Under the pieces are notes generated by a model that saw nothing but the letters and a program-made list of their open reading frames with translations, was not told the origin of the DNA and made no database searches. Position numbers and translations under genes: made by a program. A stretch of DNA of 43,390 bases from a virus, in the IMG/VR virus record IMGVR_UViG_3300025313_000038, positions 1-43,390 of that record; one strand, 5' to 3'. Each line of letters opens with the position of its first letter. Position 1 is the first letter of the stretch. Below, piece after piece: positions 5,044-39,602 of the stretch.

Positions 5044-5937
5044 TCATGAATTCTCTAATTTCAGAGCAATTCTATTCTTGAAACTGTACTCCATCTCAAC
5101 AAATTTTCCGTTCGGATCAGCAGGATCACCTGTCAAGTATCTCCACAGGAGCACGGTCTTTCCATTTACATGCAATTCATGACAGAGTTTGCTCATGGTA
5201 GGATAAGCACCAGGCTCGAGCGCAATAATGAACGTTTCGGCAGAAGAACCTATCAATCTTGAAAGCTTCTCCTCTGTTGGCTCTTTTCCAATAAGTGCGA
5301 CAGCATTCTCTCCGACAGCCATCGCACTGAACGCTCCCTCACACACGACGACTTCATCGAACTTGTGAAGAGCCTGACTGTTGAAAATAACATCCCTTGC
5401 AGGATTTGAAGGATTTATGTATTTTGGCTCCATCGCCTTGAAGATACGTCGTGCTTGCCAATATCCCTTCTCGATCGGAATCACAACTCTTCCATATAGA
5501 GATGCTGCCACTCCGATGTTGTACGATCTCCAATGATCGTCACCAAATCCTCTAAGCAAGAGATATTCCTTTGCTTTCCTTGGAAACAATCCCATCGCAT
5601 CACACAAATTCTCGAAGTCTTTCGGGAACCTATATTCAGACTCCTTCTCCTCTTCATTTTCTTCACCTTGAAATAGTATCCCACTGAAATCCCTCACATT
5701 CGGTTGAACATACAACTCGCCAAAAGCACGATGAAATGGAAATCCGGTGACACCCATCACCAGACCAATCCAATTCGCTTTATAACCACAACGAAAACAA
5801 TGACACACTGGCTTGTTTATCGCAATCGACAGGTGATGCTTGACATCCTCACAAAACGGACAAGCAACGCTATAATTCTTGTCGTTTTGCTTGACATCGT
5901 CGAACGTTCTATAGACCCAATTCTCTATGTCAAACAT
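5044..5937 (-). CDS. DNA primase, CHC2 zinc finger plus Toprim
   Basis: This 297-residue protein would synthesise RNA primers for the phage replisome. The N-terminal zinc finger is C-P-F-C ... C-H-C-F-R-C-G (about residues 26-51), matching DnaG-type CHC2 domains. The Toprim region is in the C-terminal half, with V-V-V-C-E-G supplying the catalytic Glu. The following acidic motif reads A-L-E-P-G instead of the common D-x-D, so metal binding may differ. It is about half the length of bacterial DnaG and has no helicase-binding domain. The start overlaps the stop of the helicase gene by 8 nt, which fits a primase-helicase pair. Confidence 0.85.
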   Translation of the reverse strand: MFDIENWVYRTFDDVKQNDKNYSVACPFCEDVKHHLSIAINKPVCHCFRCGYKANWIGLVMGVTGFPFHRAFGELYVQPNVRDFSGILFQGEENEEEKESEYRFPKDFENLCDAMGLFPRKAKEYLLLRGFGDDHWRSYNIGVAASLYGRVVIPIEKGYWQARRIFKAMEPKYINPSNPARDVIFNSQALHKFDEVVVCEGAFSAMAVGENAVALIGKEPTEEKLSRLIGSSAETFIIALEPGAYPTMSKLCHELHVNGKTVLLWRYLTGDPADPNGKFVEMEYSFKNRIALKLENS

Positions 5938-7207
5938 TTTTCTCTTCTCTGTCTTTATACGTCACTAAACTTGTCGTGATGATTGCTTGCTGTGCACCAT
6001 AGAACTTCGCACGAATCGTGTCATGATTGCTTCCATCACGAACCTTTGCCATAAATAACCTACACTGATCCGTATCTTCTTCCTCTTTCGTACGGCAAAC
6101 AGAGATAATGACATCAGCAATAGAAGCTTTTCCGATATCTTCAGCAATATCAGCAAGCGTTATAATCTCTTTAGAAAATGAAGCTCTCCTAGACTGCGTG
6201 GCTCCCCAAACCACAGCATCTCTACGCTCTCCCAAATCTCGCAAGTCCTCACAAACCTCCGACAACTCGAACCGTCTATCTTTATATCGACGACGAGACA
6301 TGAGCAAATCAGGATAATCATCTATGATTAGATCCGGATGGAAATCATTTGCCTCCAGTCTATCAAGCTCATTCTCGATGTCTAACACAGTCATCTTCTT
6401 CTTACGACGAACTATACGTATCTTACCACGAAGCAGCTTGCGAGCAGCCTCTATGAATTCTTCAGCATACTCATCTAAATCATCTGACTTCCTTGGAAAT
6501 CTAAACGAAATGCGTGCAGCATAACGTTTCGCCACTTGAGCAGCACGCATCTCATGAGAAAAGTGAACAACATTCAATCCACTGATAACAGACGACGCAC
6601 CAAGTCCGATATTGACGAGAGACATACTCTTGCCAGCATTCTGTGGTGCCATAATCAACCCCATCTCGCCACGTGCTGGACCACCCTCCAATATATTATC
6701 AACATGCATCCAACCAGTCGGCACCTTATCCTGCCAATAGTCGTACAACCAAGAATGATAATCTAACAAATCTATGCCAGGAACTTCTATCTCCTCACCA
6801 ACTCGAAGAGCTTCCTTCATACGATCAATTGCAGACTGAATATTCACACCATTCTGCACATCGTCAACACTCTCCAATATGGCAAGCTTAGCAGCTTGTT
6901 CCCTGGCAAACTGAACAGCCATATCCGATGCGAGACTCAAGTCCCAACCATTTACACCCTTGTACAATTTTGAAACGAGTTCCTTATTACTATCCCCACA
7001 CAGAACCAGTAAATCAACATAATCAGGAGTCTTCTTGTATTTGCTTCTGTACTCTAGAAGTGCTTTCGCAACACTCTCCTCGTCCTCCCTCTCGAAATAT
7101 TCAGACTTGATTATGAAATTTCCATATCTAGACATCCAACCATCATCTAGACACAGAGCCAATAATTTTAGTCTGAAGTCACGATCGAACTCGTACGTCG
7201 GTTCCAT
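5930..7207 (-). CDS. DnaB-like replicative helicase
   Basis: This 425-residue RecA-fold helicase would unwind DNA at the fork. The N-terminal part (about 1-160) is helical. The motor has Walker A A-P-Q-N-A-G-K-S, Walker B L-I-I-D-D-Y-P-D and a G-A-T-Q-S-R motif, the DnaB motif 3 equivalent. The overall order and length fit phage DnaB/Gp4-type helicases. It overlaps the unknown upstream gene by 40 nt and the primase by 8 nt. Four ATGGAAAT-type sites lie in or near this gene and the primase (5736, 6338, 7118, 7754). Confidence 0.9.
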   Translation of the reverse strand: MEPTYEFDRDFRLKLLALCLDDGWMSRYGNFIIKSEYFEREDEESVAKALLEYRSKYKKTPDYVDLLVLCGDSNKELVSKLYKGVNGWDLSLASDMAVQFAREQAAKLAILESVDDVQNGVNIQSAIDRMKEALRVGEEIEVPGIDLLDYHSWLYDYWQDKVPTGWMHVDNILEGGPARGEMGLIMAPQNAGKSMSLVNIGLGASSVISGLNVVHFSHEMRAAQVAKRYAARISFRFPRKSDDLDEYAEEFIEAARKLLRGKIRIVRRKKKMTVLDIENELDRLEANDFHPDLIIDDYPDLLMSRRRYKDRRFELSEVCEDLRDLGERRDAVVWGATQSRRASFSKEIITLADIAEDIGKASIADVIISVCRTKEEEDTDQCRLFMAKVRDGSNHDTIRAKFYGAQQAIITTSLVTYKDREEKNV

Positions 7208-7800
7208 AGTCCAGTCCGTTGTCGCACAGTGTTTATAATGTCATTGTATGAATTGGCTCTCTTCACGCCAAACTCTTCACACAACTGATACAATACCTCG
7301 TCGATTGGTCTGCCGTTTTTATCTTCATCATACATACTATACCAAACTTCATCGACGAGAATCCTGATATCATCAACGATCGTCCTCATGCGAACTGGAA
7401 AATCTCCAAGATTTCTGTTGATATACTCTCTTGCAATGATAAGTTCTGAATTGAATAATCTCGTGTATAAATCATCGTCGACAGTATCTATTCTAACTGT
7501 CGACGATTTCATCACTTTCATGAATTTACCCATCGCCCAATTTCCACAAAACACTCTTACTGGGATACTATTGAATTCTTTCTCCACAGCCCACTTGTGT
7601 AGAGTCTTTGTGACAACCATAGCATATTCGCTACATGGTATATTGGCATCTCTGAGATCATCTTCCAGAGCAAGTAACAGCCCGTACCATCTCTCGTGTA
7701 CGAACGGTCTACTGCCAAACACTTTCTTGTGCGCATCCATATAGCAACTAGCAATGGAAATATCAGCGCAATAGCGTCGTCTTGAATCCCTCGCTGGCAT
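7168..7800 (-). CDS. Hypothetical protein between the two helicases
   Basis: I do not recognise this 210-residue protein. It has no clear motif; it is mostly helical and charged, with scattered single Cys residues. It overlaps the UvsW-like gene by 38 nt and the DnaB-like gene by 40 nt in other frames, so all three are probably translated together. Its place suggests a replication accessory role, such as helicase loading or a single-strand binding partner. That is inference from position only. AGGGTG lies upstream of the ATG at 7800. Confidence 0.65.
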   Translation of the reverse strand: MPARDSRRRYCADISIASCYMDAHKKVFGSRPFVHERWYGLLLALEDDLRDANIPCSEYAMVVTKTLHKWAVEKEFNSIPVRVFCGNWAMGKFMKVMKSSTVRIDTVDDDLYTRLFNSELIIAREYINRNLGDFPVRMRTIVDDIRILVDEVWYSMYDEDKNGRPIDEVLYQLCEEFGVKRANSYNDIINTVRQRTGLWNRRTSSIVTSD

Positions 7801-9118
7801 ATAATTTCACCCTCGCTGAAGATTGCTTGAACAGAAACTTGTTGTTATCGTCAATGAAATCATACACAGTTAGACGATTTCCATTTTCCTTCTTCCTCAA
7901 TCCCCTGCCAATTCTCTGGAGAATCTTGACATGATTCTTACCAGAACCAGCCAATATGAGAGTGCTTATGGCTGGAATGTCTATTCCTTCATCAAATATT
8001 GGTGTGGCGATGAATATACCTCCTTTGCCCATGCTATCAATTACTTCCTTACGAAACTCTGTAGAATCACCACCACTAACAAATGCAGAGCCTCGTATCG
8101 ATTCTTGTAATAATTTGCCATGTTCGATGCGCTCTACAAGTATAAGCACAGTTCCATTATCATTCTCAGCAAATTGCCTTATCCTCGCATTGCGTACATC
8201 ATTGCGAACAATAAGATTATCGTACGCATCACTATAATTCATGTCCCACAAATCGTCATCACCATCACTGATGACACTAACATTTATGGTTGGCTCAGCA
8301 CTATACTCATGTTCAATCATCCACTTGTTGCCAAGATCGAACACAACCTCTCCAGTGTATGCAATGAGTTTCATGTCTGACAATACATCGTACTTCAATG
8401 GAGTCCCACTGAATCCGAAACGATAACAACCAGGAATGCTAGACAACACATCCATCATCGTATCGCTAGATACGTGGTGGCATTCATCGATCATAACGAG
8501 AACATTTCCATTGACATCTAACACATTGAGCTTATTGCTCAACGTCTGAATCATGGCAACTGTTATTGTTTGTGGATCCCAAATGCCGTCACCAATCTTA
8601 CCAATTCTGATATCTAATCTATCTTCAAATCTTTTCGCAGTCTGATGAAGCAACTCTTTCCTGTGCAACAGTACGACAGTTTTCGGCACATGAAGAGCTT
8701 TGATAATTGCAGCCATGACTTCTGTCTTACCAGAATTCGTTGCCATCTTAGCAACACCACGTCTGAATCCCAACAGTGCATTTGCTGCATTGATCTGATA
8801 TTCTCTTAGAATAATTCCACTGAGATCGTTCTCGCAAACAGTAGTGAAATCCCCCAATCTGCCATCCTTGTACCAAAGACTAGCTTGTACACCATACTCA
8901 TCTAACTTGCCAACAACGAGATCTAACAATCCTGTTGGAAATGTGGACATATCCTTCATGAGTGAAATATAACCGTCCCAATATCCGGATTTATACTTCG
9001 GCATGAAGCGATATCCGTTCGGTCTCGCTCTACAAACTTCTCTAATTATAGCAAGAGCACGTGGATTAGATCTAGGCTGCAATATGGATGAGTATATATC
9101 TCCGACAACGATTTCCAT
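7763..9118 (-). CDS. UvsW-like superfamily 2 DNA helicase
   Basis: The 451-residue protein has the full set of SF2 motifs: A-T-N-S-G-K-T (I), D-E-C-H-H (II), S-G-T-P (III), I-A-T-P-I-F-D-E-G-I-D (V) and Q-R-I-G-R-G-L-R (VI). The first 110 residues resemble the DNA-binding N-domain of T4 UvsW. Such helicases branch-migrate recombination intermediates and clear R-loops during phage replication. The start at 9118 begins with the over-represented 8-mer itself (ATGGAAAT, encoding M-E-I). A 12-bp hairpin lies 15 nt upstream of the start. Confidence 0.88.
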   Translation of the reverse strand: MEIVVGDIYSSILQPRSNPRALAIIREVCRARPNGYRFMPKYKSGYWDGYISLMKDMSTFPTGLLDLVVGKLDEYGVQASLWYKDGRLGDFTTVCENDLSGIILREYQINAANALLGFRRGVAKMATNSGKTEVMAAIIKALHVPKTVVLLHRKELLHQTAKRFEDRLDIRIGKIGDGIWDPQTITVAMIQTLSNKLNVLDVNGNVLVMIDECHHVSSDTMMDVLSSIPGCYRFGFSGTPLKYDVLSDMKLIAYTGEVVFDLGNKWMIEHEYSAEPTINVSVISDGDDDLWDMNYSDAYDNLIVRNDVRNARIRQFAENDNGTVLILVERIEHGKLLQESIRGSAFVSGGDSTEFRKEVIDSMGKGGIFIATPIFDEGIDIPAISTLILAGSGKNHVKILQRIGRGLRKKENGNRLTVYDFIDDNNKFLFKQSSARVKLYASEGFKTTLLR

Positions 9119-17369: not shown

Positions 17370-17956
17370 TGCTTCCTCAATACAAGAAAGTTTTTATACA
17401 TTGTAATAGATGTATGACCATGTTCTAGAATACTATCAAATAACACTTCTTGATGAATCGGATGCAAAGCTTTCCAGTCCTCTATTATATACAGACCACC
17501 AGACTTGACAAACTTGAATAGAGATAAAATGCTAGCTGTGATAGTCTCTATGGTGTGTGCGCCATCATCTATAATGACATCTACACCATTAGGAAATTCA
17601 ATGTTTATACATTGCTCGACAGCATCAATACATAACGAATCCATATAATAAACCGATATATCATGAGAATGAAAATACTCTGACAACGCATACGATACCT
17701 CAAATCTATTATCGATGCCGACAACCTTACAACCAAACACTAAATTCCATAGAATCAGGGATCCACCATCAGCCACTCCAATTTCAAACAAGGATGTAAT
17801 ATCTTCATGTCCAAAAAACATATCTTTGTAACTATCTAATGTAGTTTTATTCTTGCGATGAACAACATCTGTATCGTCCCCACACAACTCATATGGTCTC
17901 AAGAAAAGTTCATCATTCAAAGATATTCTAGAAAATTCCAAATATTGAAGATTCAT
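17366..17956 (-). CDS. SAM-dependent methyltransferase, macrocin/cephalosporin-hydroxylase-like
   Basis: The 196-residue protein has the class I fold motif I F-E-I-G-V-A-D-G-G-S, an acidic end of strand 2 (V-V-G-I-D-N), and V-D-V-I-I-D-D-G-A-H, which matches sugar O-methyltransferases of the macrocin/TylF type. It probably methylates a sugar laid down by its neighbours. It is coupled by ATGA overlaps on both sides to glycosyltransferases. Confidence 0.75.
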   Translation of the reverse strand: MNLQYLEFSRISLNDELFLRPYELCGDDTDVVHRKNKTTLDSYKDMFFGHEDITSLFEIGVADGGSLILWNLVFGCKVVGIDNRFEVSYALSEYFHSHDISVYYMDSLCIDAVEQCINIEFPNGVDVIIDDGAHTIETITASILSLFKFVKSGGLYIIEDWKALHPIHQEVLFDSILEHGHTSITMYKNFLVLRKQ

Positions 17957-21117: not shown

Positions 21118-22590
21118 CTAGTCTAGAGTACCACCACGTGAAGAAGCAACGTGGAGAGGCTTTCCACCTGGCAGGTAGAATTTCTGGTACGGATCACCAG
21201 TCAGAGGCTGGCGCTTGCGAGCGCAGCACACATCGCTGATACGCACCTGAGCCCAAGGAGCAGACAGATAGATTTCCGGAGACGTGCCCATCATCAGAGT
21301 CACGCACCAGTTATCTTCCTTGCCTTTCACAACGAACCGACCGCCACTGTCAGCACGAGCAGTGAAGTCAGGCATCTGGCGACGAATGCGATTCTCATAC
21401 TCTCGCATGTCCAAGAACTCGCCATACAGCACGTCGATGGAGCCAATCTTGCGAGTAAGCAAATAGATATCGGTGCACCAAGTTCCAGCACCTTTGGTGA
21501 TATCCATTGCATCGTCCACCATGATCGGCAACCGGCGACCAGACTTCAGTTGGATAAAGCCAACAGCAGAGGCACCATCATACAGCGGACCACCATTCAG
21601 AGCCATACGCATTTCGCGTTGCGCACGACGCAGAGCCTGATCGGTGACGTCATTCTCTGAAGTCACACCACAGGTCGTATAGCAAGCATACGCATCCAAC
21701 AGACAGGTGGCCATGAAGCGAGTCGTGAACAGAACCATATCGGTTTCGGCAATTGTGCCGATCATAGAAGCACGATATTCGGTCTCTGTGACAAGTTCGT
21801 CGAGGTAATCGAAGAAATTTCCATTACCATTCACAGCACCGTCGAGATCGTCGAAGTTCCAGTTGACGAGCACAGAGTCGGCAGCAGGGCAGGTCACGCC
21901 ATTGTTATCTTCGTAACCAGTCTTGATAATCGACTCGAGACCATCCATCTGATAAGAGTTTGTATGAGCGCCATGAACGATATCCCGACGCATATCCTGC
22001 TGAAGAACGGTCATGATGCCGTTCATCTGCCACTCGACGTCGTCACGGATCATCGCACCATTCACACGATACCGTGGAGAAGTCTCGCAGCGCTCCTGAA
22101 TCACAGTATGAGGAGTGAGAGCATCCCCACCACGATGATACCAGGAAGTGTGGACGAGATCATATCCACAGTAACCATATTCCCAACCAGTTGGATCTTC
22201 GCAGGGAGAACCAGCACCAGTCACATTCGTGCAAGCGACGGTGCCAGTAGGACCAATCCATGGGATGAAGTCCACACGACGCTTGTAGAAGCGATTCGGA
22301 CGCCAACCCAACCAGTTCATAAAACCTACAGTTTGCACCTGAAGACCGAAAATGTCACCAGATGAGCAGCAGTCGAAGATACTCATGCGACCGTAGATAG
22401 AGTGATTGCCAAGCAAGGCGTCGAGAGACGCTTCCTTGTAGGCAATCGGACGAGCACCACGGTCGTAATGTCTCTGAGAATTGGCAAGTGCGTGACCAAT
22501 TGCAGTACCAAGCACAGCCACGTCGCCAGGATCCTCAGCAACGAGAGCACCACCATCGAAATAGGACTTCAGTCGTTTGTTTTTCTTCAT
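21118..22590 (-). CDS. Major capsid protein (candidate)
   Basis: The 490-residue protein follows the protease-scaffold gene directly, the usual place of the major capsid protein in portal-protease-capsid cassettes. Its codon choice is richer in G/C than its neighbours, as often seen in highly expressed genes. It has a strong binding site (GGAGG) 8 nt before the ATG at 22590 and hairpins behind it. I count 14 cysteines including two C-C pairs, high for a capsid protein. The fold cannot be proven by eye; the call rests on order, size and expression signals. Confidence 0.65.
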   Translation of the reverse strand: MKKNKRLKSYFDGGALVAEDPGDVAVLGTAIGHALANSQRHYDRGARPIAYKEASLDALLGNHSIYGRMSIFDCCSSGDIFGLQVQTVGFMNWLGWRPNRFYKRRVDFIPWIGPTGTVACTNVTGAGSPCEDPTGWEYGYCGYDLVHTSWYHRGGDALTPHTVIQERCETSPRYRVNGAMIRDDVEWQMNGIMTVLQQDMRRDIVHGAHTNSYQMDGLESIIKTGYEDNNGVTCPAADSVLVNWNFDDLDGAVNGNGNFFDYLDELVTETEYRASMIGTIAETDMVLFTTRFMATCLLDAYACYTTCGVTSENDVTDQALRRAQREMRMALNGGPLYDGASAVGFIQLKSGRRLPIMVDDAMDITKGAGTWCTDIYLLTRKIGSIDVLYGEFLDMREYENRIRRQMPDFTARADSGGRFVVKGKEDNWCVTLMMGTSPEIYLSAPWAQVRISDVCCARKRQPLTGDPYQKFYLPGGKPLHVASSRGGTLD

Positions 22591-22648: not shown

Positions 22649-24046
22649 CTAGCGACGAGACTTTGCCTGATGAGGACCAAGCACGAGGTCGGTCATAGAA
22701 GTGTATTGCGTACCATCAGCACCAACGATAGCAGCAGTTGCTTCCTTCTCTTCTTCCTCACCGTCTTCGTAATCCTCGTCCTCATCATCCGCCATATCTT
22801 CATCATCCATCATGCGTTTCTTCTTGCCGTCCATCTCTTTAGAGACCTGCTTGAAGCGACGAATGCGAAGCTTGTTGGCACGAGGCTGATCCTGAACTTC
22901 CTTGCGAATCTTCTCGCCATCAGTCTCGAGCAGTTTGTCAACCTTCTCTGAGAGAGCCTCGACCAATTCCTTCAATTCGGTAATGGCTTCAGATTCCTTG
23001 CTCTCAGCAATCTCGATGGTCAAGCCATCCAGAAGAGTTGACACACGCTCTTCGACTTTATCGGCAATTTCCTTGAGGACAGAATCGTCGAGAACGAAAC
23101 CTTCCTCACTATCATCGTCATCCTGCTTATCAGCAGCGTCCTTCATTTCCTTGAGGACAGCCTCAGGAATATCCTTGTATTCCTTCAGAGTCTCATCGGA
23201 CATATCCTTCAGACGCTCGTCAACCACTTCCTCAGGGATGCCAGCTTCGAGAAGTTTTTTCTTCATTTCTTTTTTGGTCATGGAAAAATCCTCCACACTA
23301 TTCAGTTTGATTGCAGATGCACTTGTCCACGGAACACAGGGAATATCCGTGATGGTAACATCGAACGTTCTGACTTTCTCGAAGCGAACATCCTTCAGAA
23401 TTCTCTTATAAGTTTCGTATACAGACTTACAAGAAGGACAACGAAAACCAATCTTGAGATGTTCCTTCCGAACAATCAGACCACTGCTACAATTCGGACA
23501 CTTCCCTGATACCTCTCTAGCAAAGAAACCACGACTGACTCTCCACTGTCCATTCTTGTTACCTGCGAGCATCTTTTCGCAGACAGCAAGAGAGAACGGG
23601 TCTTCATAAGATGATCCCTCGTCGACCAGAAAAATGCCTACTCGACGCATCTTCTCGACTTTGCCAACTCCCAATTTACTTGTATGAAACACACGAAACT
23701 CAGGATAGATATCAGTTTCTTTCGCGATTCTGATATCCTCATCCATTGCCTCTGTTGTGAACGTTTCATCATCTTTATCAGGAAGAGCAGCAGTCGAAAC
23801 AGTCGTGATCCAGTAGCCACCAGATTCCTTCTTCTCGACATAGGCGAATGAAGCATTATCATCGACAATCTCTTTTTGGACCCAGGCATCGCCACGAATC
23901 TCGTTGATTGTCTTGAATACAACAACCTGCCAATCGAGGTCTTGCTCTTTTCCAATTTGTTGTGCTAGATCATACACCAAATTGGCTTGGGAATTAGAGA
24001 GAGGAATGCCCTCTATTTCTTGCATGTCCTTTATAGACAATTTCAT
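22649..24046 (-). CDS. Prohead protease-scaffold fusion with zinc ribbon
   Basis: Residues about 75-250 look like a phage prohead protease domain, with S-G-G-Y-W-I-T-T and a candidate catalytic region R-V-F-H-T-S. Within it lies a zinc ribbon C-P-N-C ... C-P-S-C (about 183-211). Residues 265-440 are highly charged, Glu/Lys/Asp-rich and coiled-coil-like, as expected for a scaffold, with a poly-acidic run near 410-430. The scaffold would direct capsid assembly and then be cut by the protease. Protease class is inferred from position and domain layout. Confidence 0.6.
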   Translation of the reverse strand: MKLSIKDMQEIEGIPLSNSQANLVYDLAQQIGKEQDLDWQVVVFKTINEIRGDAWVQKEIVDDNASFAYVEKKESGGYWITTVSTAALPDKDDETFTTEAMDEDIRIAKETDIYPEFRVFHTSKLGVGKVEKMRRVGIFLVDEGSSYEDPFSLAVCEKMLAGNKNGQWRVSRGFFAREVSGKCPNCSSGLIVRKEHLKIGFRCPSCKSVYETYKRILKDVRFEKVRTFDVTITDIPCVPWTSASAIKLNSVEDFSMTKKEMKKKLLEAGIPEEVVDERLKDMSDETLKEYKDIPEAVLKEMKDAADKQDDDDSEEGFVLDDSVLKEIADKVEERVSTLLDGLTIEIAESKESEAITELKELVEALSEKVDKLLETDGEKIRKEVQDQPRANKLRIRRFKQVSKEMDGKKKRMMDDEDMADDEDEDYEDGEEEEKEATAAIVGADGTQYTSMTDLVLGPHQAKSRR

Positions 24047-24086
24047 GATGCGAACTCTCCAGCAATATATACTAAATACACAAGAA

Positions 24087-26192
24087 CTATCCTATTGTCT
24101 CCGGAACAGGAACTGATTCATGTACCTCAATAAGAACTTCTTTTCCATTTCTCTCGATGCAAGTTTCACAATGTTCGGCAGGGCGATTGTGATAAGTTGC
24201 CTGTATGAGATTATAAGTTCGTCCACCACGCTTGACAGTATCGATAACTCTCAATGACCACATGCACATGCAATTTACAAGGCATTCGCTCGAACCGTCT
24301 TTTGGCAACCAAGGTAACTTCTTAGAGAATACGTCTCCAGCCTGTATCTTTATTGCACTGAACTCACCAGCATTGCCATACATATGCGCTCTTGCTTTGA
24401 TAGCAGCAAGCGAAATAGAATCTCTGTCTAATGCTATCTTCTCGGCAAACGCATGTAGATAACGATATTGCTCTTTGACAATCGGACCAATTCGTCCCCA
24501 ATCAGCAAACGTCATTTGATCCCAACCACCCTTGCCAATCGCAGCAATGGAAGCATGAAGCTCTCTAATCAAAGCACGCATCTGCTCTTCCCACTGACCA
24601 ATGGAAATCTCTCCGACATACATACGTTCGACAACAGCATCGACTTCGTCAATGAACATAGCTTTACGTATCTCAATAAGATTCGTTATCGAGTCCTCAT
24701 CAATCGGCAACTGTTTATAGACAATATCTCCTGTGAATGGAAATTCGATGTGCTCATCACCAAAATACACGTAAACAGAATCGAATACAGCAGAATAATT
24801 GATGCTATCTGATGGAATGTCGATAAGCTCATGAGGAATGTAACCTAATGTCACATGAGGGGTGAAACCATGATCTTCCTTTTCTACAAGCACTTGCAAC
24901 GGTGCACCATCACGAATTGCAGACTTCAACAAAGAATGGAAACCTACAAGAGAAGGAGAGTCGAAAAGCAAAACGATGGGACAAAGATCCTCATCAGAAT
25001 ATTCCTTCCACACAGGAACAGCATCGGTCAATGGCACATCACCATACAAACGAACTTCTTCCAGCCCGTATCGTCTACCAAGATCGAAATTCATAAGCAA
25101 TGCACCAGTCCTCAAGTTCTGTCGTGGAATCCTGACATACCCCACTCTATTCGAATTCACTTTTTCCATTGCTTCTGTCGCATTGAAGAATATAGGATTC
25201 CTTACACCAGTAGCACGTTCTCTAGCACTAAAATAATCTCGCATCACATCGCCAATCATGTATGTAGACGATACAGTCGCATAATCCTTGTAACTCCAAC
25301 CTTCATTTGCCTTAGAATATTCATCCATGTCAGATATAATATTATTCACGTGCTCTTCAGAATCTATCTGATTTCCATTCCTGTCAAACACTTCCCAATG
25401 TGATGTCGCTTCGTTGAAACTGAGTCTCTCTCCAGTATATTTCTTTGCCATATCGGCATACACACGAGTGTCCATCACCAATTGTTTAGCAATGTCCTCA
25501 TCCACAGTCATAGATACAATTTGATCGTACTTATCACCACCAAGACCACCCTCTCCACGAGCACTGATTTCACCACTTTTGGAAATCCCTGGCATGCTAG
25601 TCGTCATGTGATAAACATAATCACCAATACGAGGATCATCTGGACTGATAACTTCATAGCCACGAATCGGTGCACCAGTCGGTTGCTTGTTGCTATCTCC
25701 GTGCATATCCTGTGGTTTAGTCCCGATTGGAAATCTGGACGCTGGCACACCGACATAGACATCCATGGAAGAAGCGATTTGAGGAGCACTCCCTCCAACT
25801 TTACCAGGTCTTCCAGCATGGCCATGAAAGCCACTTCCCTCTCCTCCCTTCTCCTCGATGAACTCCTTCCTCTGATCAAAGTATCCGTATCCATTGAACA
25901 CGCCACGAATCGGAGCATGAGTATCGGCAATCGATCGTACTGTCTCTAATAATTTATCCTTATCGACTTCGTCCATATTGCCAACGAACAGCAGTGCGAG
26001 ATGAAGATCGTCGATACGATATTCTTCAGGAACAAGGCTCTCTTGAAGCTTGAGAATGTCCTCATTGCCTTCGAGGTTGAAAGCAACAATGACAGAATCA
26101 GAGAAGTCTTGCTGCTTCTCCTCCTCGCCTGGGCGTCCTGAATGACCAAAGTGACCAGAGCCTTTCCCTCCCTTATGAATGACGACTTTCAT
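24087..26192 (-). CDS. Minor head protein with split 2H phosphoesterase and inserted ART-like domain
   Basis: Residues 7-22 carry the tag K-G-G-K-G-S-G-H-F-G-H-S-G-R-P-G. A 2H phosphoesterase (2'-5' RNA ligase-like) fold follows, with H64-x-A-L and H446-V-T-L as the two catalytic motifs, about 380 residues apart instead of roughly 80. The insert (about 113-400) starts with a second tag copy (115-135) and then an ADP-ribosyltransferase-like domain with Y-H-M-T-T (194-198) and E-E-V-R-L-Y-G (378-384). Residues 510-701 resemble Mu gpF-type minor head proteins, with C-L-V-N-C and H-C-E-T-C at the end. It overlaps the portal stop by 4 nt. Confidence 0.7.
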   Translation of the reverse strand: MKVVIHKGGKGSGHFGHSGRPGEEEKQQDFSDSVIVAFNLEGNEDILKLQESLVPEEYRIDDLHLALLFVGNMDEVDKDKLLETVRSIADTHAPIRGVFNGYGYFDQRKEFIEEKGGEGSGFHGHAGRPGKVGGSAPQIASSMDVYVGVPASRFPIGTKPQDMHGDSNKQPTGAPIRGYEVISPDDPRIGDYVYHMTTSMPGISKSGEISARGEGGLGGDKYDQIVSMTVDEDIAKQLVMDTRVYADMAKKYTGERLSFNEATSHWEVFDRNGNQIDSEEHVNNIISDMDEYSKANEGWSYKDYATVSSTYMIGDVMRDYFSARERATGVRNPIFFNATEAMEKVNSNRVGYVRIPRQNLRTGALLMNFDLGRRYGLEEVRLYGDVPLTDAVPVWKEYSDEDLCPIVLLFDSPSLVGFHSLLKSAIRDGAPLQVLVEKEDHGFTPHVTLGYIPHELIDIPSDSINYSAVFDSVYVYFGDEHIEFPFTGDIVYKQLPIDEDSITNLIEIRKAMFIDEVDAVVERMYVGEISIGQWEEQMRALIRELHASIAAIGKGGWDQMTFADWGRIGPIVKEQYRYLHAFAEKIALDRDSISLAAIKARAHMYGNAGEFSAIKIQAGDVFSKKLPWLPKDGSSECLVNCMCMWSLRVIDTVKRGGRTYNLIQATYHNRPAEHCETCIERNGKEVLIEVHESVPVPETIG

Positions 26193-28150
26193 TTGCGCAG
26201 TCCTTTCACAAGCAACTCCTCCTCTTCAGCAGACAGAGCATACTTGCTCAATATTGGATGCTTGCGCCAACGCTCTAATTCACTCTTGATCGTCTTCGCT
26301 GTCGTACTAGAACCTCTGCCAACTTCTCCTTCAGGAATTGGCTCTCCTTTGATGTTGCGATGCAGAGCCATTACTTCATCTTCCTTCGTCTCGAGGAACT
26401 TGAGAGCATCAGTGATAGAATCGAACTCTCTTTCACGATGATTTCCATTCGTCTTCAAGATCGCATCAGGAACATATTTGCCATCAGGCAACTGTCTTGT
26501 GTTTATCACAATCGGAGCAAGACGACGAGGAGACAGAACGCCATCCTTCCACACATATGAGATGTAATCCTCGTCATGAACGTCGTCATCCTTACGAATA
26601 CGGACATCGGCGTCACGAATGGCAATTCTCTGATCATTAGCAAGATAATCCGGAAGAACACCTTTGTCGATGAGTAATCTCAATAATTGTTCTTTATTGA
26701 TCACCTGTCCAGACTTCTGATCATTTCCATTCTGCTGAGCAGGAACAGGCAGTTGCTTCATCTCGACACGATCAGCACGCTTGCCAGCAGGTTGTCCTTC
26801 TTGCTGACCAGCCTTTGTTCCAGGCATCGATTGAGGAGAAGGAGGAGTAGTTTGACTCTTTACACCCTCATACAGAGGCCAGAATGCATCGATCCAAGCA
26901 CCGGCAATCTTCGCAGAGTTGAAATCCTCCTCGATATCCTGCGTATCGTATCTCATCTCAGCATCGTCTGGAAGTTCACCATTGAGATGTCGTTCTGTAA
27001 TGGAAATGAACTCTCCTGGTCCCTTGCCACGTGCCTTCTGATGCTGAATCTCTGACTCGCTCGCAGTTCCAAGAGAGCCAGATGAAATTGGCCAGAACTC
27101 TCTTGCATCGACGCCAAATGCAAGAGCAAGAGTGTTCACATACTGATCGACAACCGTCTTTCTTTCAAAACTTTCTGGCAGTTGAGAAAATCCTTGGATG
27201 GCGACCTTCACTTCGACGTTTGGCTGAGAACCAAGCAGCCACAGTACCTGTGGGAATGTCAACGAATTGTCAGACTCTCTCTTTGCCTTCCACAGATTGA
27301 CAGCATCGACGAACTCGTCCATCGTGAGACCAGTAATTGCAGCAATGCCCTCTGGAGGGAGATTGTCTAATTTTTCCTCATCGTAATCATGCAAACCGAG
27401 AAGAAGCTTTGCAGCACGATAAGCACGACTTACAGCACAGAAACCAATACCAAGATATCGCTCACGAGAAGATGGAAGAGAGGCAAAATGGATATATTCA
27501 CCATATTTGAAACGAATAGTCTGACCTGTCACCTCGGACATGTAAACCATCGGACGTTTCTTGTTACCAGTCAAAGTACATGACAGACTGTCAATGTGTC
27601 CTAGATCTGTAACGTGTCCAAGATTATCACGAGGAGTTTCCCAAAATGAACCACGATCTGTTGTAAAGAAATCATTTGCTGTAGATGAGATAAATCCTCC
27701 CCAGTCATATCCATCCATGTGAGCAGCAGTAGCAAACATCTCTGCTGCTGTCTTTGCTACTCTCTTCCTACCAGTAACAGACCAAGACAGAGCAGTCATC
27801 TTCGCAACCATTGAATAGACAGCACCAGCAAGGATTGGTTCATCCATCCAGATCTCCGACATATGAATATCCCTGTCTAATGTAGCATAGACAGGACACT
27901 CATCTCCTTTTTTGACGAAGGATCTGAGGATATTCATAGCAGAGTAATAAGCAATATCTCTGTCTGTATGACGAACATCAAGCTTAGATTTGTCATCTTC
28001 AGAAGGATTGTTCTGCTTCTCAACAGTCTGAAGCGACTTGTTAGCAATCATCTCATCAATTTTTCTTGAAGCAGAACGAAAGTCTGGAGTAGTTCTGAAA
28101 GCATGTACTCCAGCACGTAATCCTCTCTGAATTCTTGTGAATACATTCAT
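26189..28150 (-). CDS. Portal protein
   Basis: This 653-residue protein forms the dodecameric DNA channel at one capsid vertex. It shows a portal layout: a basic N-terminus, the central wing/stem region with I-L-A-G-A-V-Y-S-M-V and W-S-V-T-G-R-K, then G-F-C-A-V-S-R-A-Y-R-A-A and A-L-A-F-G-V-D-A-R-E-F-W-P, typical of HK97-like and DUF935-related portals. A Gln/Pro-rich linker (about 430-480) separates a C-terminal extension of about 170 residues that is not part of the core and may reach into the head. GGAG precedes the ATG at 28150. Confidence 0.85.
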   Translation of the reverse strand: MNVFTRIQRGLRAGVHAFRTTPDFRSASRKIDEMIANKSLQTVEKQNNPSEDDKSKLDVRHTDRDIAYYSAMNILRSFVKKGDECPVYATLDRDIHMSEIWMDEPILAGAVYSMVAKMTALSWSVTGRKRVAKTAAEMFATAAHMDGYDWGGFISSTANDFFTTDRGSFWETPRDNLGHVTDLGHIDSLSCTLTGNKKRPMVYMSEVTGQTIRFKYGEYIHFASLPSSRERYLGIGFCAVSRAYRAAKLLLGLHDYDEEKLDNLPPEGIAAITGLTMDEFVDAVNLWKAKRESDNSLTFPQVLWLLGSQPNVEVKVAIQGFSQLPESFERKTVVDQYVNTLALAFGVDAREFWPISSGSLGTASESEIQHQKARGKGPGEFISITERHLNGELPDDAEMRYDTQDIEEDFNSAKIAGAWIDAFWPLYEGVKSQTTPPSPQSMPGTKAGQQEGQPAGKRADRVEMKQLPVPAQQNGNDQKSGQVINKEQLLRLLIDKGVLPDYLANDQRIAIRDADVRIRKDDDVHDEDYISYVWKDGVLSPRRLAPIVINTRQLPDGKYVPDAILKTNGNHREREFDSITDALKFLETKEDEVMALHRNIKGEPIPEGEVGRGSSTTAKTIKSELERWRKHPILSKYALSAEEEELLVKGLRK

Positions 28151-28190
28151 AAATTTACTCCAGAATTTTCTTTTCTCATGTTTTCTCTCA

Positions 28191-28258
28191 GCGACCGACA
28201 GGTCGCTTATTATTATAATAAATATACGAGCGAAGCGAGTATATTTATTATAATAATA
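28191..28258. other. Two adjacent hairpins, one a perfect 20-bp AT-only-like stem
   Basis: GCGACC-GACA-GGTCGC (28191-28206) abuts a hairpin with 20-bp arms at 28208-28227 and 28239-28258, perfect inverted copies made almost entirely of A and T with a C-G closing pair. The 11-nt loop GAGCGAAGCGA contains a GCGAAGC mini-loop. It lies between the portal gene and the replication initiator gene. It could be a cruciform at the origin, or a terminator for the early operon. Confidence 0.8.
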
Positions 28259-28390
28259 GATATAAATACCAAATAATAAATATAAGTTTTCTTTATTCTT
28301 TTATTTAGTCTTATCTTTATTATTGTTAGCCACCATACTAACGCTGGCGTTAGTAGCTTTACTAACGATAACGTTAGCTCCTGTACTAAC
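28208..28390. other. Putative replication origin
   Basis: Three 18-bp iterons (28325-28390) lie inside the 3' end of the RepO-like gene, next to an AT-rich segment (28208-28324) that includes the 20-bp hairpin. Lambda ori has the same plan: O-protein iterons inside gene O, followed by an AT-rich unwinding region. The iterons and the AT bias are seen directly; origin function is inferred. Confidence 0.65.
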
Positions 28391-28678
28391 GCTCCATAGC
28401 GCACCGTCTTTGCTGCCTGTCTTACACACGATCCATCCCTCATCGATGAGCTTAGCACACGCATCGTGAAGATTTGGCAGATATGTTCCAAGATCGTCCG
28501 CCATCTTCCTGTATGATCGCTGCCAAACTTCTCTATGATAGCCAAATGTCATCCTCACTATGTAATCTATAATCTTGCGTTCCAATGCTGTCAACTTGCA
28601 TTCTGGATTTATTAATTTGTCTAGTACACAGTTCGGATATCTGGTAAATACATCATCCGTTACTGTGCCTTTGCTCAT
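28301..28678 (-). CDS. RepO-like replication initiator
   Basis: The 125-residue protein matches the N-terminal winged-helix domain of lambda-O-type and phage RepO proteins: an N-terminal F-T-R-Y-P-N-C-V-L-D, then L-T-A-L-E-R-K-I-I-D-Y-I-V-R-M-T-F-G-Y and the W-Q-R-S-Y-R-K-M-A-D-D-L-G recognition segment. The C-terminus is a short Ser/Val/Asn repeat encoded by the iterons, and it lacks a long helicase-binding domain. The protein would bind the iterons in its own gene and recruit the replication proteins. It overlaps the upstream zinc protein gene by 26 nt. Confidence 0.75.
   Translation of the reverse strand: MSKGTVTDDVFTRYPNCVLDKLINPECKLTALERKIIDYIVRMTFGYHREVWQRSYRKMADDLGTYLPNLHDACAKLIDEGWIVCKTGSKDGALWSVSTGANVIVSKATNASVSMVANNNKDKTK
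28325..28390. repeat. Three 18-bp iterons at 24-bp spacing
   Basis: GTTAGC-N6-ACTAAC at 28325-28342, GTTAGT-N6-ACTAAC at 28349-28366 and GTTAGC-N6-ACTAAC at 28373-28390. Each is an inverted repeat of 6-bp arms around a 6-bp centre. Start-to-start distance is exactly 24 bp, slightly over two DNA turns. Confidence 0.85.
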
Positions 28679-28913
28679 ACTTCACAACCTTCTTTGCCTT
28701 CTTGTCTAATCTATCGTGATAACATGGCATGCAGATGAATTTACCAGCCTGACGAATCAATTCTTGTTCATCATCTACACGCACAAGCCACTCATGGCCA
28801 CATACAGTACACAGAAGACCAATCTTTATTGTGCTGATAATTACAGACTCTTCTGTGTACTTATGTACGATATCAGAAACCTCACGAATAGACATTGCCT
28901 TCTTTGCCTCCAT
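28653..28913 (-). CDS. Small zinc-binding protein
   Basis: This 86-residue protein has C-T-V-C-G-H and, about 27 residues later, C-M-P-C-Y-H, a zinc-ribbon pair. The first 30 residues look helical (I-R-E-V-S-D-I-V-H-K-Y). The start is uncertain: ATG at 28913 follows GAGGTG closely, and an ATG six codons later also has purine-rich sequence before it. It precedes and overlaps the initiator gene and may be a replication accessory or a transcription factor. Confidence 0.6.
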   Translation of the reverse strand: MEAKKAMSIREVSDIVHKYTEESVIISTIKIGLLCTVCGHEWLVRVDDEQELIRQAGKFICMPCYHDRLDKKAKKVVKYEQRHSNG

Positions 28914-28952
28914 CACCTCTTCTCAGTATATAATTACCTTTCAATGACAACA

Positions 28953-37508: not shown

Positions 37509-39602
37509 TCAGATAACAACTCCTCCACCGCTTCCAGCGCTCCAGAATGCCAAGCAAACAGCGTCACCATAGTCTGTAGATCTGCCAATCCTCTCACGAA
37601 TAAGCTTCTTGCTCTCAACCTTTACAACACCGTCAGAAATCATGTCCCACTTCGGAGCAGTCAGGTCTATTTTTAGCTCTTCAACAGGAGGCAAAGCAAC
37701 TTCTTCACCATTGTCAGGATCCAACAGCTCTCGCATATTCCACCACATAGCACTACGAACGTCATCAAAAGAAAGTTGTTTCGATTTATCACGAAACTTC
37801 GTACTTCCACCAACCGTTATAGGACGTAAGAGTGGAACTCCCTGCTCACGTAAGTTATCATACACAGCAGCACCAAGTCCGCCATCTGTTTCTATGTGTA
37901 TATACCGATTCTCAGCACGCACCTTCACATGACCTGTAGTTGCCGTGGTCGGTAGCTTCGAAAACACATACAGATTGGGGACAAGGAACGCGTCCCTCAC
38001 AGCGATCACCGTCTTGTCATCGCCAGCACGTGCCACGTCCACACCAAGTGTCCTCTTGCCATGCTGGTCAGGAGATCCTGACTCTCTCCATTCCTTCCAT
38101 CTACTCTGTGCTGACAGCACCCACGATAATGGGATGACTCCTTCCTCTGATGTATCTGCGAACTCTCCTAGTACTCTGTTCTGGAACATAGCACTATCTC
38201 TCCCCCATTGCTTCTCCCTCTGCGCTACCCACAATGATGAGACCCTACCTGCACGGACAGCTTCATCTATAGTAACATGTCTTGCTATCCAGTCCTCGAA
38301 TCCTGGTTTCCTCATATGTATGTCATAGAACTGTCCTGATGGTGCACCAGGAGTACTTATTGCGAATGCTCTCGCTTCATACACAGTAGAGACGATACCA
38401 GCAGACCTTACCTGTGTATGATCGTCAATGACGGTGATATGAGAGGACTTACTTGTATTGCCGTGTGAGGAGGTATTGTGAGATGATTGTAGAGCATTGC
38501 TATGGGAGAGAGGATCCTTGAGAGCGGAATGAGGGAGACGTGGTGACATGGGATGCTCTTTTATTACATCAGAACTATCCTTACTGGAAGCAATGTTACT
38601 ATTCCCTAGTGATGTACTAGTAACTCTCTCCTCTACTACGCCATCACTATCATCATCCTCTATCATATCTCTATACACACCAGCATCTGTAAGCTTCTTT
38701 ATATTCTCTTCACTAGCAAGTAATCCTGTATCATCACTAGTAATTACACCATTACTCCCTATGTACGCTTTTTCACTACGGAATATTTCAGGAATGTCAT
38801 CATCTACATTTTTAGCTAGTGCTTTATATACATCCTTCATAGTAGAGTTTTTTGCTGGAACGTAATTTTGCGGAGAGTTATCCTGAGTATTTTTCAAGGA
38901 GGATTGATGAGATGAATCCCTATCTCTAGGAAATACTCCATACTCCCCTACTCCATATTCTCCCAGCGTAGTTTCTCCCAGAACTTTTGCTCCTGCATTA
39001 GAGAATGCTCCTTCGATGGCGTCCCATGTTGGTCTTGGAATGCTCTTTGCTTCATCGAGAATATAAAACAGGGAAATTGCGTGGGCTCCCTCCATTGTCG
39101 TATGATCGTCAGATGCGACAGCAAAGGACTGAACAAGACCTTCCTTGAGTTTTATCTGTAGAGACAGCAGCTCTGTTCTGAGATCGTATGCTGGACGGCC
39201 GATGTTTGACCAGTTGATGAGTTTAGATACTTTTCTGATTTCTGGCCAAAGGTATCTCTCTAATTGACGCCAAGCACTTGCTGTTGTGGGAACCTTTGCT
39301 TCAGTATCTGCTGTTAGGACAGTATGATGAGTGAGGACAGCAGCGATAGTAGTTTTTCCAAGACCATGAGAACCTCTTACAGCTACTTTACTGTAACCAT
39401 CATCGAAATATCCTAGGATTTCCTCCTGATAATCTGCGAGAGTATTTCCAAGATCTGGAAGACAATCATACACGAAGGCAATTCTATCATTTCTGTACAT
39501 CCTCTGGAATCTTGAAAATGCAGACTTGCCAGAGATGTCAATATAGACATTCTTTAACAACTCTGCCATTGTTCCTATTTGGCTTGTATCCAGAGACTTC
39601 AT
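37509..39602 (-). CDS. Terminase large subunit with disordered insertion in ATPase domain
   Basis: This is the packaging motor. The 697-residue protein has Walker A G-S-H-G-L-G-K-T (77-84), Walker B F-Y-I-L-D-E (179-184) and the coupling motif I-S-T-P-G-A-P-S-G (415-423). The C-terminal nuclease has G-V-D-V-A-R-A-G-D-D and a final G-D-A-V acidic residue. Most relatives have about 430-510 residues. The excess lies at about 206-403 (38394-38987), a Ser/Asp/Asn-rich stretch between Walker B and the coupling motif. It does not look like an intein: no Cys/Ser junction with His-Asn end. A later ATG at 39569 has AGGA close by and may be the true start. Confidence 0.85.
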   Translation of the reverse strand: MKSLDTSQIGTMAELLKNVYIDISGKSAFSRFQRMYRNDRIAFVYDCLPDLGNTLADYQEEILGYFDDGYSKVAVRGSHGLGKTTIAAVLTHHTVLTADTEAKVPTTASAWRQLERYLWPEIRKVSKLINWSNIGRPAYDLRTELLSLQIKLKEGLVQSFAVASDDHTTMEGAHAISLFYILDEAKSIPRPTWDAIEGAFSNAGAKVLGETTLGEYGVGEYGVFPRDRDSSHQSSLKNTQDNSPQNYVPAKNSTMKDVYKALAKNVDDDIPEIFRSEKAYIGSNGVITSDDTGLLASEENIKKLTDAGVYRDMIEDDDSDGVVEERVTSTSLGNSNIASSKDSSDVIKEHPMSPRLPHSALKDPLSHSNALQSSHNTSSHGNTSKSSHITVIDDHTQVRSAGIVSTVYEARAFAISTPGAPSGQFYDIHMRKPGFEDWIARHVTIDEAVRAGRVSSLWVAQREKQWGRDSAMFQNRVLGEFADTSEEGVIPLSWVLSAQSRWKEWRESGSPDQHGKRTLGVDVARAGDDKTVIAVRDAFLVPNLYVFSKLPTTATTGHVKVRAENRYIHIETDGGLGAAVYDNLREQGVPLLRPITVGGSTKFRDKSKQLSFDDVRSAMWWNMRELLDPDNGEEVALPPVEELKIDLTAPKWDMISDGVVKVESKKLIRERIGRSTDYGDAVCLAFWSAGSGGGVVI

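Follow-up and report, generated by a model that had tools for sequence, protein, structure and literature searches.

Candidate lambda-type replication origin within a short O-like gene of a phage with a self-encoded DnaB-like helicase and primase

The replication origin of phage lambda lies within gene O and consists of inverted-repeat iterons, which bind dimers of the O protein, and an adjacent A+T-rich region of 40 base pairs (bp) (PMC5043065). The tract adjoining the iterons is strand-asymmetric (PMC5043065, PMC4488673, PMC7466680), and two iterons together with the A-rich tract constitute the minimal unwinding unit (PMC7466680). In lambda, recognition of the origin and recruitment of the helicase loader and helicase are combined in a single protein, each task falling to a different half. 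Here we describe a short minus-strand gene in the virus record IMGVR_UViG_3300025313_000038 of IMG/VR, which encodes an O-like protein of 125 residues and carries a candidate lambda-type origin at its 3' end. The entire record of 43,390 nucleotides, hereafter 'the window', represents about half the genome of a phage from a family with genomes of 74–79 kilobases (kb). A preliminary description of this DNA had proposed a lambda-like origin with three inverted-repeat iterons at 24-bp intervals in the 3' end of a RepO-like gene, next to a hairpin assigned to the same origin. The iterons and their spacing are confirmed by the coordinates given below, and the match to lambda and other O genes extends to the O_N domain, the form and 24-bp period of the iterons, their distance from the domain end and an A-rich tract; it does not extend to the hairpin, to the C-terminal half of O or to a lambdoid phage.

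28301–28678, minus strand: O-like initiator gene, 125 residues, predicted to comprise the O_N (iteron-binding) domain only; matched in Pfam and PHROG
28373–28390, minus strand: iteron 1, first in gene direction, GTTAGT-ACAGGA-GCTAAC on the gene strand, starting at codon 97
28349–28366, minus strand: iteron 2, GTTAGT-AAAGCT-ACTAAC on the gene strand
28325–28342, minus strand: iteron 3, adjoining the A-rich tract, GTTAGT-ATGGTG-GCTAAC on the gene strand
28281–28329 (about), minus strand: A-rich, strand-asymmetric tract, the predicted unwinding element, abutting iteron 3 and containing the stop codon of the gene

The 125-residue protein matches the Pfam family PF04492 (Phage_rep_O) over residues 7–89 with 35.7 bits (curated cut-off 28.7) as well as PHROG 678, 'replication initiation O-like' (E 1.9e-6), and its alignment retains the invariant Trp at the end of the O_N domain. 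The O protein of Proteus phage Pm34 is its only phage match at E < 0.01; at relaxed E, the matches are mostly annotated O proteins, the best one included, with 24–30% identity. No close relative was found in viral, genome and plasmid collections, a sequence search of the PDB with this protein and with lambda O gave no match, and a single-sequence AlphaFold2 model is unusable, with a mean predicted local distance difference test (pLDDT) score of 39. Only 7 residues follow the last iteron before the gene terminates within the A-rich tract, and hidden Markov models of three O_C types yield no match in the window. Hence, as judged from its sequence, the protein represents O_N only, and the half of O which binds the helicase loader is missing.

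Located inside the gene directly after the O_N domain, the three 18-bp inverted repeats (GTTAGY-N6-ACTAAC on the plus strand; starts at 28325, 28349 and 28373) are spaced by exactly 24 and 24 bp. The pattern has no further exact match in the window, the other listed matches having three mismatches, and the best array score elsewhere in the window is 25, compared with 38 for the iterons. When the protein sequence was held fixed and synonymous codons were redrawn from the phage's own usage, none of 3000 draws reached a score of 38 (null maximum 35), and for residues 94–120 not one of 100000 draws contained three GTTAGY-N6-RCTAAC sites. The iteron array is therefore maintained at the DNA level, which bears out the earlier proposal that its spacing is under selection as DNA. 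The support is weaker when direct repeats alone are scored, 2 of 200 and 5 of 300 shuffles then reaching the array, because the 6-bp centres differ between iterons and the signal is carried by the inverted-repeat arms. The same double iteron was not found in the viral contigs scanned, and none of its three matches in genome contigs is near an O-type gene. Arrays of GTTAG...CTAAC with a 24-bp period occur at L074 1310–1351, L073 7348–7389 and L075 6531–6572 (a Nitrosopumilales contig and two Bacteroides contigs).

For comparison, a repeat finder was applied to eight phage O genes that match the 125-residue protein or are related to it, namely those of lambda, Pm34, N7, phiES15, IME1369_01, CBP1, Bas106 and IPK. 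Repeat arrays are present just after the O_N domain in all eight, mostly as 18-bp inverted repeats 19–24 bp apart, with spacings of 20/24/23 in lambda, 24/24 in Pm34 and IME1369_01, 20/24/24 in N7 and Bas106, and 19/24/24/24 in CBP1. The window gene combines the same two attributes, that is, a Phage_rep_O N-terminal domain followed by in-gene inverted-repeat iterons of ~18 bp within the range of 20–24 bp. It resembles lambda gene O also in that (i) the first iteron begins one codon past the invariant Trp, (ii) a tract of ~40 bp, A+T-rich and strand-asymmetric, adjoins the array on its downstream side, and (iii) the 40 bases directly after the last iteron contain 27 A and 6 T in the window versus 26 A and 5 T in lambda, with similar counts in most of the other O genes compared. 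In the window's 43 kb, 40-mers of such composition occur on either strand at this place only. Pm34 and the Morganella phage IME1369_01 likewise carry three iterons, exactly 24/24 bp apart and in the same place; their arms, however, read GTCTC/GAGAC, their O proteins have 301 and 263 residues, and a P or DnaC-like gene comes next. The O gene of Caldibacillus phage CBP1 shares the 24-bp period, the A-rich tract and iterons such as GTAAGC-N6-GCTGAC, which encode an 8-residue repeat, Val-Ser-x-x-x-Asp/Asn, similar to that in the window, but its protein of 334 residues has a long C-terminal part and five repeats.

Lambda has four iterons rather than three, and its O protein of 299 residues continues for 155 residues after them; the comparator O proteins comprise 260–391 residues, with 123–239 residues after the last iteron in the seven that were measured. 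Moreover, the P loader adjoins O in lambda, whereas the O-like gene of the window is followed by a hairpin and by the structural operon, which starts at 28150 and whose first neighbour to the O-like gene is a structural-module gene of 653 residues devoid of any PHROG or Pfam match. Given its anatomy, the cassette qualifies as a lambda-type origin. It does, however, depart from a full lambda O/P system in two respects, as far as the predicted proteins tell, lacking both the O_C half and an adjacent P or DnaC-like loader, and is therefore to be classified as an O_N-only variant. What is new is the stripped, O_N-only initiator that stands with its origin beside a different replisome.

The phage itself is not lambdoid in organisation or relatives. 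A lambdoid assignment was rejected because positions 22649–28678 have no DNA match among 50,697 phage records and the window is syntenic with circular genomes of 74–79 kb that have their own helicase and primase. Relatives at ~50% protein identity include contigs of 71–79 kb, two of which, of 74 and 79 kb, are judged to be complete circular genomes from an end overlap of 127 bases; in one of them the 653-residue gene spans the contig ends. Six IMG/VR records (G001, G002, G004, G007, G009 and G010) carry the 653-residue gene and share with the window, in synteny, the structural genes, ThyA, TerL, a DnaB-like helicase, a primase and a UvsW-like helicase, but none of the six has the O-like gene. 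Its absence was found by protein and Pfam-profile searches of the whole records and by a more sensitive local O_N profile applied to the two complete genomes and to parts of the other four; additional family members collected through a 490-residue protein (21118–22590) did not contribute a further copy. In five of the six relatives, an intergenic region directly follows ThyA, and it is there that the window has the O-like gene and origin inserted, together with an 87-residue gene. The preliminary description had named relatives with the protein but without the iterons as evidence that would tell against an origin; no relative found has the protein.

We consider it probable, at about 0.72, that the locus is a lambda-type origin cassette acting in a phage with its own DnaB-like helicase and primase. 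That it is active as an origin we infer from its anatomical likeness to lambda. By analogy with lambda, dimers of the 125-residue protein would bind the iterons and bend the DNA, and the A-rich tract would then be opened under negative supercoiling. The phage's own helicase might then make use of the opened tract, unaided or via a loader; this step, which has less support, is proposed in view of the missing C-terminal half of O and of the phage-encoded primase and DnaB-like helicase, the latter located at 5930–7207. Whether the minimal initiator and its origin serve as a working plug-in for this unrelated, self-encoded machinery, such that recognition and melting are split from helicase recruitment, is a more tentative matter, to which we assign somewhat less than an even chance.

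Several observations weigh against an active origin. Recruitment of the helicase is left without an explanation, since the window has no recognisable O_C domain and none of its scanned proteins could be identified as a P-like or DnaC-like loader, about half of the genome lying outside the window. Six relatives with the 653-residue gene lack the O-like gene, and the shared replisome is therefore evidently able to initiate without it. The iteron centres vary in the window, whereas those of lambda are nearly constant. Finally, GC skew, proposed earlier as a check, is of uniform sign across the window and two complete relatives and cannot place an origin, so that it neither supports nor contradicts the one proposed here.

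Among the alternatives, interference survives best, although we regard it as unlikely: additional iterons and an O_N-only protein might act against a lambda-type competitor or prophage sharing the host, whose initiator they would sequester or block. The missing O_C would indeed leave a protein that binds DNA but does not recruit helicase, the relatives replicate without the cassette, and ectopic lambda origins are known to block lambda replication (PMC4488673, PMC3349717). However, the A-rich tract is intact here, which speaks for an origin, since the tract was dispensable for the published inhibition by plasmids (PMC3349717), and the viral and genome collections yielded no lambda-type competitor that carries these iterons. 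Rather improbable is also a relic, that is, part of an O gene and origin of the lambda type acquired by recombination, truncated and now out of use. The presence of the cassette in a single family member and the end of the gene inside the A-rich tract would agree with decay, but the frame is open, the domain scores above the Pfam cut-off, and the iteron arms, their spacing and the tract are all preserved. Least likely are operators, through which the protein, of the winged-helix type, would repress its own operon or switch on the structural operon downstream. A small DNA-binding domain and sites located ahead of the structural operon would suit this reading. The sites are, however, placed within the 3' coding region and not ahead of the O-like gene's start, the number of promoter-like sites in the region does not exceed chance, and position, period, iteron shape and A-rich tract fit lambda-type origins in detail.

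If the predicted origin is active, lambda-type origins can spread as cassettes beyond lambdoid phages, and the locus would provide a natural system for studying origin melting without the recruiting domain. It also offers a candidate origin for a single member of a family in which no initiator has been recognised. In this family the UvsW-like helicase (window 7763–9118; PF21241 N-terminal domain followed by helicase domains) suggests recombination-dependent replication. With regard to other origin signals, the DnaA box TTWTNCACA is absent from both strands of the window, where about four would be expected by chance, an Rfam search of the region returned nothing, and the two complete relatives have no lambda-type A-rich tract at the corresponding place. 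As to an iteron origin that all relatives might have in common there, repeat arrays exceed shuffles in G002, with 19-bp direct repeats, and in G007, with a weaker array, but not in the other four relatives. The G002 repeats (contig L036), three iteron-like tandem copies of AAAGTAAGTATATATAAGT, are located just upstream of a hairpin; G002 has no O-like gene, and no initiator was seen near the repeats.

The remaining features around the cassette are as follows.

28208–28258 (arms 28208–28227 and 28239–28258), no strand assigned: perfect 20-bp AT hairpin with loop GAGCGAAGCGA on the plus strand, a family element
G002 7823–7833, G007 1042–1052 and G010 17858–17868, strand opposite to the genes: hairpin loop GAGCGNAGCGA in relatives, between the ThyA side and the 653-residue gene
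28190–28207, no strand assigned: small GC hairpin AGCGACC-GACA-GGTCGCT in the leader of the 653-residue gene
28653–28916, minus strand: gene of 87 residues overlapping the start of the O-like gene, with weak zinc-finger or HNH-like matches only

The 20-bp hairpin exists as first described, but its assignment to the origin was rejected. It is located downstream of the stop codon of the O-like gene (gene end 28301), and hairpins with the loop GAGCGNAGCGA are found at the same place and in the same orientation in G002, G007 and G010, with changed arm sequences but preserved pairing. Because these three relatives have the hairpin and no O-like gene, we judge it to be a separate intergenic element of the phage family, outside the O cassette. 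In the family members having it, the motif occurs once per record and always on the strand opposite to the genes. On that strand, the loop could pair as C-GA-GC-GNA-GC-GA-G, which we take to be a DNA mini-hairpin of an unusually stable kind. The flanked motif ATAC-GAGCGNAGCGA-GTAT is present in 14 IMG/VR stretches, mostly unrelated. T-runs sometimes follow motifs of this type in unrelated contigs, which makes a transcriptional role plausible, and the GCGAAGC loop might conceivably point to a promoter for a virion RNA polymerase of the N4 type. The genomes of the family commonly contain further intergenic hairpins, and a hairpin similar to the small GC hairpin is found at the same position in L003 (GCGTGGC-TGT-GCCACGT). 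The 87-residue gene, like the O-like gene, is absent from the two complete relatives.

Elsewhere in the window, the large terminase (37509–39602, 697 residues) carries a Ser/Asn-rich insert of ~200 residues between two conserved parts. The insert is apparently absent from the 508-residue terminase of G009, and the terminase of G007 is similar in size to that of the window (748 residues).
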